Part shown: piece by piece, positions 4,171 to 41,891 of the stretch
How positions within the stretch are numbered: the first letter of the stretch is position 1
Layout: every line of letters starts with the position of its first letter
Source: Nitrosarchaeum sp.
Lineage (GTDB): Archaea > Thermoproteota > Nitrososphaeria > Nitrososphaerales > Nitrosopumilaceae
NCBI RefSeq assembly: GCF_025699065.1
Contig: NZ_JAILWF010000005.1
Span: 1-64,000 of the forward strand
Direction: 5' to 3'
DNA length: 64,000 bases
The notes under the pieces: generated by a model
The model's input: only the letters and a program-made list of their open reading frames with translations
Database searches by the model: none
What the model was told of the DNA's origin: nothing
Position numbers and translations under genes: made by a program

Positions 4171-7100
4171 TTAATCAATTTTATCATATGGTTCTATTGG
4201 ATCTCTGGTTGTTTTATTATCTTTAAGCCATTCCAGAGTCTTTACAAAAGAATCAGCAAGTTCAATTGTAGTAAGAACAGGAATCCCTAACTCCAAAGAT
4301 TTTCGTCTAATTTGATATTCATCTTCGAGCATTCCAACATATTTTTCAAGTGTTGACGTACTTGGTATATTTATGATGAAATCGATCTTTCTATCATAGA
4401 GTAAATCCGCAATGTTTGGTTTTCTTGTAGGCTCTGATATTTTATGTACAACTTCAATATCACCTATTTTTTCTTCAAAAAATTCTGCAGTGTGTTCTGT
4501 TGCTACGATTTTAAATCCAAGACCCTTTAATCGCGCAATAGGTTGTAGTAATTTTTCTTTGTTTTGAGAGCCACCAACGGTTACCAACGCAGTACCTGTT
4601 TTAGGAAGAGTATACCCTGCAGAAGTAAGTCCTTTTGCTAATGCATCGTAAAAACTCGTACCAAAGCATGCAACTTCACCAGTTGATTGCATTTCTACAC
4701 CTAATGTAATATCTGCTCCCTCTAATTGCATAAATGAGAACTGTGGTACCTTGATTCCAAAGTTATGGATTTTTTGCCATTTATTTTCAGGCATTTTAGG
4801 TAGTGGCTTACCTAAGATTGCCTTTGCCGCAAGCATAATTAGATTTGTCTTAACAAGTTTAGATACAAACGGCATAGAACGTGATGCTCTTATGTTTAAT
4901 TCAATTACATAGACATGATCATCGTGGATTAAAAATTGTAAATTAAATGGCCCCTTAACATTAAATGTTTTTGCGATCTTTATAGAATATTCAGTTATGG
5001 TATCAATAGTTTTATTGTTTAATCGCCATGGAGGAATACACATCATAGCATCACCAGAGTGAACGCCTGCGCTTTCAATGTGTTCAACTATTGCTCCAAT
5101 TATTACATCAGTGCCATTACTAATTCCATCAACATCAACTTCAAGTGAATTTAACATGAATTTGGAAATCACTACAGGATGATCAGGAGATACATCAGTT
5201 GCTTCCTTAACATATTTTTTTAGTTCATCTTGAGACCAGACAACTTTCATTGCAGCTCCAGACAACACATAGGAAGGTCTAACAATTACGGGGAATCCTA
5301 CATCATTTGCAAAGTTTTTGGCTTCTACAACATTTGAAAATGCCTGCCATCGAGGTTGTTGAATGTGTAATTTATCTAATTCAGCACTAAATTTAGAACG
5401 GTCTTCTGCTCTATCAACATCATTTGCACTAGTACCCATAATGTTAACACCTAGTTTTGCAAGGCCCAATGTAAGATTATTTGCAGTTTGGCCTCCAACA
5501 CATGTGATAATTCCTTTTGGGTTTTCAAATTCAGCAATATCTAAAATTCTCTCCAAAGTCAATTCTTCAAAATACAATCTACTGCAAATATCATAATCAG
5601 TTGAAACGGTTTCAGGATTACAATTTACTACTGAAACATTTTTTTCTCCATTTTCTTGCAAACCCCAAACCATGTTTACTGTGCCCCAATCAAATTCTAC
5701 ACTACTGCCAATACGATATGGTCCAGCACCCAATACAATTACTCCTTTTTCATCAGGATTAACGGTAATATCATTTTGATTTCCACCATATGTCAGATAT
5801 AGGTAATTTGTGACCGCTGGCCATTCAGCTGCAAGCGTATCAATTTGCTTTACAGAGGGCAAAACCCCTGCTTTTTTGCGTATTTCACGTACTTCTTCAG
5901 GAGATTTATCTTTAGCACGAGCAATTTGCTTATCAGAGAATCCCAATTTTTTTGACTCCCAAAGTAAAGGAGTTGAAAGTTCTTCTTGTTTTAATTTAGA
6001 TTCTACATCTACGATGTTTTTGATCTTTTCAATAAACCATGGATCAATTGAAGATAATTTGTAAATTCTTTCAACTGAAATTCCAATTTTGAGGGCAGCT
6101 GCAACATAATACAAAATCAAATCATCAGGATGAGATAGTTTATCTTCTATTTGCTCTTCATCAAATGTTTTCATGTTTGCTCTGTTTAAAACAAGTCCAT
6201 CATTTCCAATGTCAAGCATACGTATTGCTTTTTGTAATGATTCCTCAAAGCTTCTTCCCACTGCCATAACTTCACCAACTGATTTCATTGTAGGACCAAG
6301 TTTTCGTTTTACAAGATCAAATTTACCAAAATCCCATCTAGGATGTTTACACACAACATAATCTAACGATGGTTCAAAACAAGCAGTAGTGGATTTAGTG
6401 ATTCTATTAACTAATTCAGGGAGAGTATATCCCAATCCAATTTTGGCAGACATGTATGCTAATGGATATCCAGTTGCTTTGCTTGCAAGTGCAGAAGAAC
6501 GAGACAATCTTGGATTAATTTCAATTGCAACATATCGGTCAGAATCAGAATCTAATGCATATTGAATATTACATTCTCCTACAATTCCAACATGTTTTGT
6601 AGCACGTAATGCTGCTGTTCGTAGCATATGATATTCGTGATTATTAATTGTCTGAGAAGGTGCAACGACAATATTATCACCGGTGTGAACTTTCATAGAA
6701 AGAACATTTTCCATATTACACACAATAACATTATTTCCATCCCAATCTTGCATTACTTCATACTCTATTTGCTTCCAATGTCCAATGTATTCTTCAACTA
6801 GAACTTGTCCCACAAGACTTGCACGTAATCCACGCTCTACAATTTCATGTAATTCAATTTCATTGTAAGCTACTCCACCACCCTTACCTCCAAGTGTATA
6901 TGCTACTCGAATAATTACAGGATAACCTAGTTCCTGAGCTATTTCCTTTGCATCTTTAAAATTAGTAACAGTTCTACTTTTTAGAACTGGAACATTACAT
7001 TGGGTCATAGAGTCTTTGAAGAGCTGACGATCCTCAGTTCTTTGAATTCCAGGAATTTGTGTACCTAATACTTTCACGCCATACTTTTGCAGTATACCTG

Positions 7101-7435
7101 CCTCTGCAAGATTAATACCACAATTTAGAGCAGTTTGACCACCATATGCCAGCATAATTCCATCTGGTCTTTCCTTTTCGATAACAGATTCTACATATTC
7201 AGTATTAACAGGTAACAGATACACATTATTTGCAAATCTAGTATCTGTTTGGATTGTTGCAATGTTTGGATTGATTAGAATACTTTGCAGTCCATCTTCA
7301 TGTATTGCTTTGAGGCATTGGCTTCCGGAGTAGTCAAATTGACGGTCGTTTTTAGCGACTCTCGCCGGCTTCTCCGATTTTTATTGCCCCACTACCAAGT
7401 ACAAGAATTTTTTTTATCGACTCATTTTTTGGCAG
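4171..7435 (-). CDS. carB: Carbamoyl-phosphate synthase large subunit, interrupted by a 22-nt BHB intron
   Basis: Joins ammonia (from CarA), bicarbonate and two ATP into carbamoyl phosphate for pyrimidines and arginine. Two ATP-grasp halves are visible (first: LGGKGGGVAYNE, INPRLSRSSALASKATG; second: GPYRIGSSVEFDW, ELNIRASRSMPFVSK), then the allosteric MGS-like domain. Exon 1 (7435-7361, 25 codons) reads PKNESIKKILVLGSGAIKIG and ends GEAGE. Exon 2 (7338-4171) begins FDYSG. The 22 nt between them bring TAA into frame. Spliced length is 1080 aa, normal for CarB. Unspliced, only an internal start at 7224 remains, and the product would lack the N-terminal ATP-binding loop. No ATG, GTG or close TTG precedes the conserved PKNES; the best start is CTG 7435, 9 nt after GGAGG. 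carA overlaps by 14 nt. Confidence 0.9.
7339..7360 (-). other. Candidate 22-nt bulge-helix-bulge mRNA intron in carB
   Basis: Read on the minus strand, exon 1 ends GGCG-AG. The intron is A, GUCG, loop CUAAAAA, CGAC, CGUC, AA, and exon 2 starts with U. GGCG (7366-7363) pairs with CGUC (7344-7341), with one G-U pair, as the 4-bp central helix. GUCG/CGAC forms the intron hairpin. The bulges are AG|A and AA|U, each cut after its second base, as the archaeal splicing endonuclease does. Outside, CGGAG (7376-7372) can pair with CUCCG (7330-7326). Excision is phase 0 and restores GEFDYSG exactly. The components sum to 22 nt. Fold and cut sites are inferred by hand. A natural frameshift or a sequence artefact are the alternatives. 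Confidence 0.75.
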
Positions 7436-39238: not shown

Positions 39239-40345
39239 ATGCGTCTATTAGAGTTTCAAGCAAAAGAGTTGTTTAGAAACTATGGAATTAATCTCCTTCC
39301 AAGCAAAGCATCTACAACTATAGAGGAAGGCAGAAAACATGCAAAAGAATTAGGATATCCATTTGTAATTAAAATTCAAGTTCCCGTAGGAGGTAGAGGA
39401 AAAGCCGGAGGCATTCAAAAATGTCAAAATGATGACGAATTTGAGTTAAAATATCCACAAGTGTTAGGCTTGACAATTAAAGGAGAAAAAGCAAGAGCAA
39501 TTTTACTTGAAAAGATGGCAGATATCAAAAAAGAGTTGTACCTGTCATTATTTTTGAATCGATCAAAAAGGTGCTATACAATTATTGCATCGCCTGAAGG
39601 AGGAGTTGAAATTGAATCAGTTAAAAATCAGATTATTAAAGAAGTTGGCCTAGGTGAAGTTTCAGATCAAGTAGCAAGAGAAGTTGCAAAAGAGATGAAA
39701 CTAGAAGGTAAAGCCGCAGATGACTTTGTAGACATATTACAAAAGTTAGCAAAACTTACAGTTGAAAAAGAAGCTGAGCTTGCAGAGATAAATCCGCTAG
39801 CAATTATGCAAGATGGTTCATTGATAGCACTTGATGGAAAATTTGTAACAGATGACAACAGCAACTTTAGACATGATGAATTACAAAAGTATCAAGAAAA
39901 AACAGAGATTGAAGAAAGAGCAGAAAAAAGTGGATTTTCACTTGTAGAATTAGATGGAGATATTGCAGTTGTTGGAAACGGTGCAGGACTAGTAATGTCT
40001 ACACTGGATATGTTATCTGATAACGGAGGCAAACCAGCATGTTTCTTGGATGTGGGAGGTGGTGCAACAACTGATTCAGTTTATGAAGCACTAACTTTGA
40101 TTAGCAAAATGCATAGAGTTAAAGGAATTTTAGTTAATCTTTATGGTGGAATTGTAAAAACTACAGTAGTTGCAGAAGCATTTCTAAAAGCATATGATGA
40201 TAAATTGATTAACTTACCAGTGTTTGCAAGACTAAAAGGTACAGAATCAGACAAAGCAAAAGAAATGTTGAAAGATTCTAGAACAAAAATTTTTGATTCA
40301 GTAGAAGAAGCAATTAATGCAGTAGTTATGGGAATTAAAAGATGA
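39239..40345 (+). CDS. sucC: Succinyl-CoA synthetase beta subunit
   Basis: A 368-aa ATP-grasp subunit that forms succinyl-CoA reversibly with SucD. It starts RLLEFQAKELFRNYGINLLP, with GGRGKAGGIQKC for nucleotide binding, LAEINPLAIMQDG for Mg2+, and the C-terminal VVGNGAGLVMSTLDML, FLDVGGGATTDSVYEAL and NLYGGIVKTT. In a 3HP/4HB autotroph succinyl-CoA is a cycle intermediate, so the enzyme links the cycle to the incomplete TCA cycle. It overlaps sucD by 4 bp. Confidence 0.94.
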   Translation: MRLLEFQAKELFRNYGINLLPSKASTTIEEGRKHAKELGYPFVIKIQVPVGGRGKAGGIQKCQNDDEFELKYPQVLGLTIKGEKARAILLEKMADIKKELYLSLFLNRSKRCYTIIASPEGGVEIESVKNQIIKEVGLGEVSDQVAREVAKEMKLEGKAADDFVDILQKLAKLTVEKEAELAEINPLAIMQDGSLIALDGKFVTDDNSNFRHDELQKYQEKTEIEERAEKSGFSLVELDGDIAVVGNGAGLVMSTLDMLSDNGGKPACFLDVGGGATTDSVYEALTLISKMHRVKGILVNLYGGIVKTTVVAEAFLKAYDDKLINLPVFARLKGTESDKAKEMLKDSRTKIFDSVEEAINAVVMGIKR

Positions 40346-41259
40346 CAGATATTTTCAAAATACTAAAAGGTACTCCTGAAGATTCAGATTACAAGAAAAA
40401 AGGGGTAATTGTTCAAGGTATCACTGGAGCATATGGTTCACTTCATGCAAAAAACATGATAACTTATGGAACCAACATTGTTGCAGGGGTAACTCCAGGA
40501 AAAGGCGGTCAGAAATTTGAAAACAAGGTGCCAATTTACAATACAGTTAAAGAAGCAGTTGATGCAAGTGGTGCAAAAATTTCAATTATTTTTGTTCCAG
40601 CAAAATTCTTTTTGGGAGCTGCAAAAGAGGCACTTGAAGCAGGAATCAAACTACTAGTTGCAATTCCAGAACATGTTCCAGTTAGAGACACAATGGAAGT
40701 ATTAGATTTAGCAAATAAAAAAGGCGCAGTAATTATCGGACCCAATACTCCAGGAATAATGATTCCAGAATTAATAAAAATTGGAATCATGCCAGCAACT
40801 CCATTTAAGGCAGGAAAGATTGCCGTGTTATCAAAAAGCGGTACATTACTTTATGAAATTTCAGATGCACTTACAAGTGCAGGATTTGGACAGTCAATAA
40901 CGATAGGAATTGGAGGAGACCCAATTAACGGAACTAGAATGATTGATGCATTTGATATGATAAAAGACATTCCAGATTTAGAAGGATTAGTAGTAGTTGG
41001 AGAGATAGGAGGAGATTCGGAAGAAATTTTGGCTCAACGAATTATAGATATTGGATTCAAAAAACCAACTGTAGCATACATTGCAGGAAGAGCTGCTCCA
41101 AAAGAAAAGAGAATGGGGCATGCAGGGGCCATAGTGATGGGAACGTATGGTTCTGCAGAATCAAAGGTATCGATGTTTAACAAGGCAAACATTCCAGTGG
41201 CAAAAAGACCGTCTCAGGTGCCAGTACTACTAGCAGGAAAAATGCAACAATCCGATTAG
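40342..41259 (+). CDS. sucD: Succinyl-CoA synthetase alpha subunit
   Basis: A 305-aa CoA-binding subunit. Conserved parts are VIVQGITGAYGSLHAKNMI, AGVTPGKGGQKF, IIGPNTPGIMIP and SKSGTLLYEISDAL. The catalytic His is in KRMGHAGAIVMG with GSAESKVSM following. It directly follows sucC with an ATGA overlap. Confidence 0.94.
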   Translation: MTDIFKILKGTPEDSDYKKKGVIVQGITGAYGSLHAKNMITYGTNIVAGVTPGKGGQKFENKVPIYNTVKEAVDASGAKISIIFVPAKFFLGAAKEALEAGIKLLVAIPEHVPVRDTMEVLDLANKKGAVIIGPNTPGIMIPELIKIGIMPATPFKAGKIAVLSKSGTLLYEISDALTSAGFGQSITIGIGGDPINGTRMIDAFDMIKDIPDLEGLVVVGEIGGDSEEILAQRIIDIGFKKPTVAYIAGRAAPKEKRMGHAGAIVMGTYGSAESKVSMFNKANIPVAKRPSQVPVLLAGKMQQSD

Positions 41260-41801: not shown

Positions 41802-41891
41802 GGACCGGTTGTCTAGTGGTTAGGATGACGCACTCACACTGCGTATGGAGAAATCCCGCAAAGGTCGAGGGTTCAAATCCCTCCCGGTCCA
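41802..41891 (+). tRNA. tRNA-Val(CAC) with a non-canonical 17-nt intron
   Basis: Acceptor stem GGACCGG pairs with CCGGTCC (41884-41890), discriminator A. The anticodon stem ACGCA/TGCGT encloses loop CTCACAC, anticodon CAC for valine. The T arm is GAGGG-TTCAAAT-CCCTC. Between anticodon stem and T arm stand 22 nt instead of five; removing 41846-41862 leaves the variable loop AGGTC and a 73-nt tRNA. A TATA-like ATAATATAC lies about 45 nt upstream. Confidence 0.93.
41846..41862 (+). other. tRNA intron, BHB, variable-loop position
   Basis: Exon TGCG (41840-41843) pairs with intron CGCA (41857-41860) as the 4-bp central helix. Bulges are TA|T and AA|G. GGA/TCC with loop GAAA forms the intron hairpin. 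The cut after tRNA position 44 is non-canonical. This is the same architecture as the carB insert. Confidence 0.85.

Follow-up and report, generated by a model that had tools for sequence, protein, structure and literature searches.

A predicted non-canonical bulge-helix-bulge intron in the tRNA-Val(CAC) gene of a Nitrosarchaeum species and an insert of the same form in its carB gene

The window is a stretch of 64,000 nucleotides from a Nitrosarchaeum species (Nitrosopumilaceae; contig NZ_JAILWF010000005.1). ARAGORN finds a tRNA-Val(CAC) gene at 41802-41891 on the forward strand, and Rfam RF00005 matches the same interval with 57.8 bits. Exon 1 (41802..41845, tRNA positions 1-44), with the anticodon CAC at 41835-41837, and exon 2 (41863..41891, positions 45-73) flank a 17-nt insert, TGGAGAAATCCCGCAAA, at 41846..41862. 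Both exons are placed by the sequence, Rfam and a test of possible cuts, exon 1 also by ARAGORN, and the insert by sequence, fold, cut test and comparison with relatives. Read directly, the acceptor stem is GGACCGG/CCGGTCC and the anticodon stem is ACGCA/TGCGT, enclosing CTCACAC. The last base of exon 2 is the discriminator A, and CCA is not encoded. Upstream of the tRNA (39239-41259, forward strand) lie genes matching the beta and alpha subunits of succinate-CoA ligase, with scores somewhat below the NCBIfam cut-offs. On the reverse strand the window holds carB, the gene for the large subunit of carbamoyl-phosphate synthase. It carries a 22-nt insert at 7339..7360, and its part downstream of the insert, recognised by TIGR01369, lies at 4171..7338.

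A script enumerated the bulge-helix-bulge (BHB)-like cuts of the tRNA-Val(CAC) gene (n = 13), and each product was rescanned with ARAGORN. One of the 13 gave an accepted product, a 73-nt Val(CAC) tRNA made by cutting after base 44 and taking exon 2 from base 61. This cut removes 17 nt, has 4 central, 3 inner and 2 outer pairs, and leaves a regular tRNA with an ordinary 5-nt variable loop, AGGTC. The uncut gene, in which 22 nt stand ahead of the T stem, is also accepted as a tRNA by ARAGORN and by Rfam, its variable region then being long. That acceptance, together with the insert's own hairpin, would suit an insert retained in the mature tRNA as a class-II-like long variable arm with a GGA-GAAA-TCC stem. 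Val tRNAs, however, are class I; the two remaining Val tRNAs in this genome, TAC and GAC, are of ordinary length (75 and 74 nt), and the ordinary loop left by excision likewise speaks against a retained arm.

The junctions have the geometry of a 3-nt bulge, a 4-bp helix and a 3-nt bulge. In the central helix, TGCG (41840..41843), which is the 3' strand of the mature anticodon stem, faces CGCA (41857..41860), which lies within the intron and is identical in its letters to the 5' anticodon-stem strand. The 5' splice-site bulge is TA^T (41844..41846) and the 3' bulge is AA^G (41861..41863); both are read from the sequence, with the geometry taken from the cut test. Between them the intron forms the inner hairpin GGA-GAAA-TCC (41847..41856), which is seen in the fold and in relatives. 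When the unspliced RNA is folded to minimum energy, the TGCG/CGCA helix, the bulge and the GGA/TCC hairpin all form; the fold has a z-score of -2.52, with 1 of 200 shuffles folding equally well or better. The inner helix has 3 bp and the outer helix merely 2 bp, which places the motif nearer the relaxed forms of BHB than the strict one. A sequence-only reading of this DNA had proposed a 17-nt insert after position 44, a regular 73-nt tRNA on its removal, and a BHB with two 3-nt bulges around TGCG/CGCA; position, length, junctions and product are all borne out by ARAGORN, Rfam, the cut test and the precursor fold.

The same reading had called for a comparison with the tRNA-Val(CAC) genes of relatives, and this comparison agrees with it. 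The 90-nt gene was used as a query against 61 genomes (E up to 1e-8) and matched 33 of them; 31 matched loci were read whole (30, plus one later). An insert at 44/45 could be parsed in all 31 family loci, with lengths of 17 to 48 nt. Inner pairs number at least 3 in 31/31, and central pairs number 4 in 30/31 and 3 in the remaining locus, L056. A wider pattern search covered 250 genomes of the order and matched 109 of them. By hand count the sample includes 82 genomes of the family, of which 77 have pattern matches, 64 with the insert and 13 without. The pattern missed five more, in which the insert is present (G018, G030, G021) or absent (G035 and G248, the contig of the latter ending inside the T arm). 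Altogether 67 of the 82 sampled family genomes have an insert at the 44/45 site and 15 have none. The insert-free genomes belong to genera g9, g6 and g19, and g9 also includes insert-bearing genomes; the insert can thus be lost and is dispensable. One insert in the family, the 48-nt insert of L256 (G030), contains a loop stretch, CGTATGGAGTAATCC, that resembles the exon-intron junction of shorter inserts, as if a partial copy of the junction lay inside the intron.

Outside the family the picture is mixed. Eight genomes of family f10 have inserts of 16 to 29 nt at the same site, with 4 central pairs in 7/8 and 3 or more inner pairs in 6/8. The insert of one of them, G157, fits the BHB form poorly (2 central and 0 inner pairs). 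That of G079 (family f2) does not fit it, having no pairs, and that of G160 has 1 inner pair only. Val(CAC) copies without an intron are present in further families, among them f7, f12, f13 and f14. For the intronless copies in G025, G022, G244 and G261, the flanks compared for synteny contain no match to the neighbouring genes of the window. In the f8 genomes given, a query with the spliced tRNA and a pattern for the D arm and anticodon found no Val(CAC) gene, G137 aside. The G137 gene (L137) has an intron of the f1 type, and contamination, a binning artefact or transfer are possible.

For the analysis of pairing, 72 of the 110 rows of the order-wide pattern search were typed. The rows left out comprise 14 family repeats of typed introns, intronless rows from the family (13) and from other families (7), and 4 whose reading as Val(CAC) is unclear (G262:C38, G151, G100, G041). 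The family rows reduce to 47 distinct helix-intron combinations, each with 4 central pairs and 3 or more inner pairs; among mononucleotide-shuffled hairpins, 5.5% reach 3 or more inner pairs. When the 3' arms were redealt among the sequences, the maximum in 5000 trials was 132 inner pairs against 141/141 observed (0/5000 equal) and 186 central pairs against 188/188 observed; since the sequences are related, the redealing serves as a control and yields no probability. In the family introns inner pair 1 is G-C or A-T, pair 2 is G-C, A-T or G-T, pair 3 is A-T or G-C, and pair 4 is mostly A-T or T-A, with compensatory two-sided changes between G-C and A-T, A-T and G-C, and A-T and T-A. Across the family the structure of the insert is kept and its sequence is not.

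The central helix covaries with the anticodon stem. The stem pair adjoining the loop is altered in 5 of the 31 loci (C-G or T-A replacing A-T), and in four of these the altered 3' stem strand keeps its pairing with the intron; the exception is L056, whose central helix contains an A-C mismatch. One strand of the anticodon stem, the 3' one, is therefore held to two partners, the mature stem and the intron, a constraint that BHB splicing predicts and a long variable arm does not. An arm would have no need for the 3' part of the insert, CGCAAA, to pair with the anticodon-stem 3' strand, or to go on doing so in 4/5 altered stems, and at the same site the 15 insert-free family genomes and the intronless loci of other families have a short class-I loop. 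We regard retention as a long variable arm as very improbable. As a class II tRNA the gene was rejected, the long arm being neither kept in orthologues nor independent of the anticodon stem. Less likely still, and hardly credible, is a decaying gene copy with a chance insertion: what is kept over the family is the structure of the insert, and not its sequence, and in this genome the 41 RF00005 matches, a list that may be incomplete, include no second Val(CAC) gene. Nothing was found in favour of such decay. We conclude that 41846-41862 is almost certainly a non-canonical archaeal tRNA intron at 44/45 of tRNA-Val(CAC), spliced through a BHB.

Before splicing, TGCG on the 3' side of the anticodon stem would pair with the intron CGCA rather than with its mature partner and so form the bulge-helix-bulge. 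A two-subunit EndA would then cut each 3-nt bulge after its second base, and RtcB would join the exons. The freed TGCG could then pair with the 5' anticodon-stem strand to give the ordinary 73-nt tRNA. Genes for such enzymes are present in the genome, which encodes one RtcB (L134) and two EndA-type proteins (L102 and L103), both scoring above the NCBIfam endA cut-off. The protein at L102 keeps Tyr, His and Lys, which we take to be the active site, in alignment with 2cv8 and 3p1z; the protein at L103 lacks the His aligned to 2cv8 and 1a79. Two EndA-type subunits, one with and one without the catalytic His, make up the predicted alpha2-beta2 arrangement. That arrangement is the one given for Thaumarchaeota in the accessible part of PMC4090602.

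Five other tRNA genes of this genome have inserts. A BHB cut was accepted for the elongator Met tRNA (40-nt insert, non-canonical), for the Tyr tRNA (50-nt insert) and for tRNA-Gln(CTG) (L070, G000:C6:24392-24499; 20-nt insert in the D loop). Inserts in Ser(GGA) (14 nt) and in a gene called Ser(CGA) by ARAGORN and read here as Leu(CAA) (17 nt) were found by the intron mode of ARAGORN; splicing and rescanning yielded no accepted product for these two genes. By eye, about 15 further nt stand in the anticodon region of tRNA-Gln(CTG), a gene that seems to contain two introns.

The insert in carB lies between the Glu (GAG) and Phe (TTT) codons of GEAGE^FDYS and breaks the reading frame near the N-terminus: on the minus strand GGCGAG is followed by AGTCGCTAAAAACGACCGTCAA and then by TTTGACTAC. 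The open frame at 4171-7224 matches TIGR01369 with 1314 bits, and removal of the insert restores the protein sequence GEAGEFDYS. The central helix is GGCG/CGTC, the bulges are AGA and AAT, and the hairpin is GTCG/CGAC. This is again a 3-nt bulge, a 4-bp helix and a 3-nt bulge, as in the tRNA-Val(CAC) intron. Common descent of the two inserts was considered, and by eye they show no sequence likeness beyond this geometry. The sequence-only reading had taken the tRNA intron as evidence for splicing of small BHB introns of the carB form in this organism, and the five further tRNA inserts, the two EndA-type proteins, RtcB and the matching geometry support it.

We read 140 carB loci (L072-L101 and L144-L253) from two collections that share some genomes. 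The insert is present in 84 and absent from 54; of the remaining two, L213 is cut off and the Lokiarchaeal L251 has an insert that is not of BHB type. The 84 inserts comprise 49 distinct combinations, with 4 central pairs in 43 and 3 in 6. The four inner pairs are formed in 193/196 cells, against a maximum of 171 in 5000 shuffles, and the 49 distinct sequences show compensatory changes. One change in the central helix is seen in G040, where GGTG with CACC replaces GGCG with CGCC. Lengths range from 20 to 34 nt and are split 19, 15 and 15 among the three phases, so read-through cannot serve all of them. In each insert-bearing locus whose spliced reading was written out, that reading is IGEAGEFDYS.

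In the exons next to the site, insert-bearing loci use uniform codons and insert-free loci a mixture. GGA is found in 27/30 distinct intron-bearing flanks vs 3/27 intronless ones, GGC in 29/30 vs 2/27, and TAC in 29/30 vs 10/27. Such uniformity would fit the requirements of a helix that takes in exon bases, with relatedness contributing. The insert occurs in loci titled Nitrosarchaeum, Nitrosotalea, Nitrosotenuis, Nitrosocosmicus and Nitrososphaeraceae, and in some titled Nitrosopumilus; it is absent from other Nitrosopumilus-titled loci, from Nitrosopelagicus and from most other families read. The carB of the window is closest to Nitrosarchaeum and Nitrosopumilaceae records, with 92-93% identity over the part compared. 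Taken together, the conservation and covariation support an intron of the tRNA-intron form in carB. As for the start of the gene, near 7430 on the minus strand, no in-frame ATG, GTG or TTG is seen there, and a CTG stands at a fitting distance after GGAGG. Among loci with a simple start pattern recognised, the pattern gives CTG in 38 of 58 insert-bearing carB loci vs 0 of 20 insert-free ones.

The Val(CAC) insert resembles the non-canonical BHB introns of archaeal tRNAs, known from Crenarchaeota and Thaumarchaeota, in being short, in lying outside 37/38, in its BHB junctions, in leaving a normal tRNA once removed, and in a host with a two-subunit EndA. That introns of this kind were already known, as the sequence-only reading had noted, is confirmed by PMC8450103 (tRNAscan-SE 2.0), which, in the part available, counts 107 noncanonical tRNA introns in Thaumarchaeota and treats them as a recognised class with its own covariance model. 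The sites given in the accessible text of PMC4090602 include 29/30, 30/31 and 45/46; 44/45 is not named there, in a list that ends with 'etc.'. The literature searched on Thaumarchaeal and variable-loop tRNA introns, as far as its text was accessible and with supplements outside its reach, yielded no paper naming the Val(CAC) insert. The 44/45 intron may well be catalogued already, for example in supplementary tables.

For carB the nearest parallel is the pre-mRNA intron of archaeal cbf5, which, according to the accessible part of PMC2738675, likewise interrupts a protein gene, with BHB junctions, in lineages whose EndA has two subunits. Unlike it, the carB insert lies in another gene and another lineage, and the table in that source counts 0 cbf5 introns in both Cenarchaeum and Nitrosopumilus. 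The same source states that as of 2009 splicing was confirmed for no gene other than cbf5, and in the part seen of PMC7714728 (2020) the archaeal pre-mRNA intron is still found 'in one mRNA', with cbf5 as the confirmed case. No paper naming the carB insert was found in the accessible text of the literature searched, supplements being outside its reach.

The tRNA-Val(CAC) intron is thus real, well supported and ordinary in kind for its group. It is a family-wide example of a non-canonical intron in which the intron strand substitutes for one strand of the anticodon stem. A BHB-type insert in the protein gene carB is far less ordinary, and what makes it credible as a pre-mRNA intron is that the machinery and other small inserts of this form are present in the organism. 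Very probably a single splicing system acts on both, the carB insert being an old pre-mRNA BHB intron of archaea of the Nitrososphaerales type. Gene callers unprepared for the insert would annotate carB as broken or shortened at its N-terminus. If the carB insert is such an intron, its removal would be required to make the first enzyme of pyrimidine and arginine synthesis, the exon codons adjoining the site would be held by RNA structure, and the tRNA splicing endonuclease would be necessary for a central metabolic enzyme.
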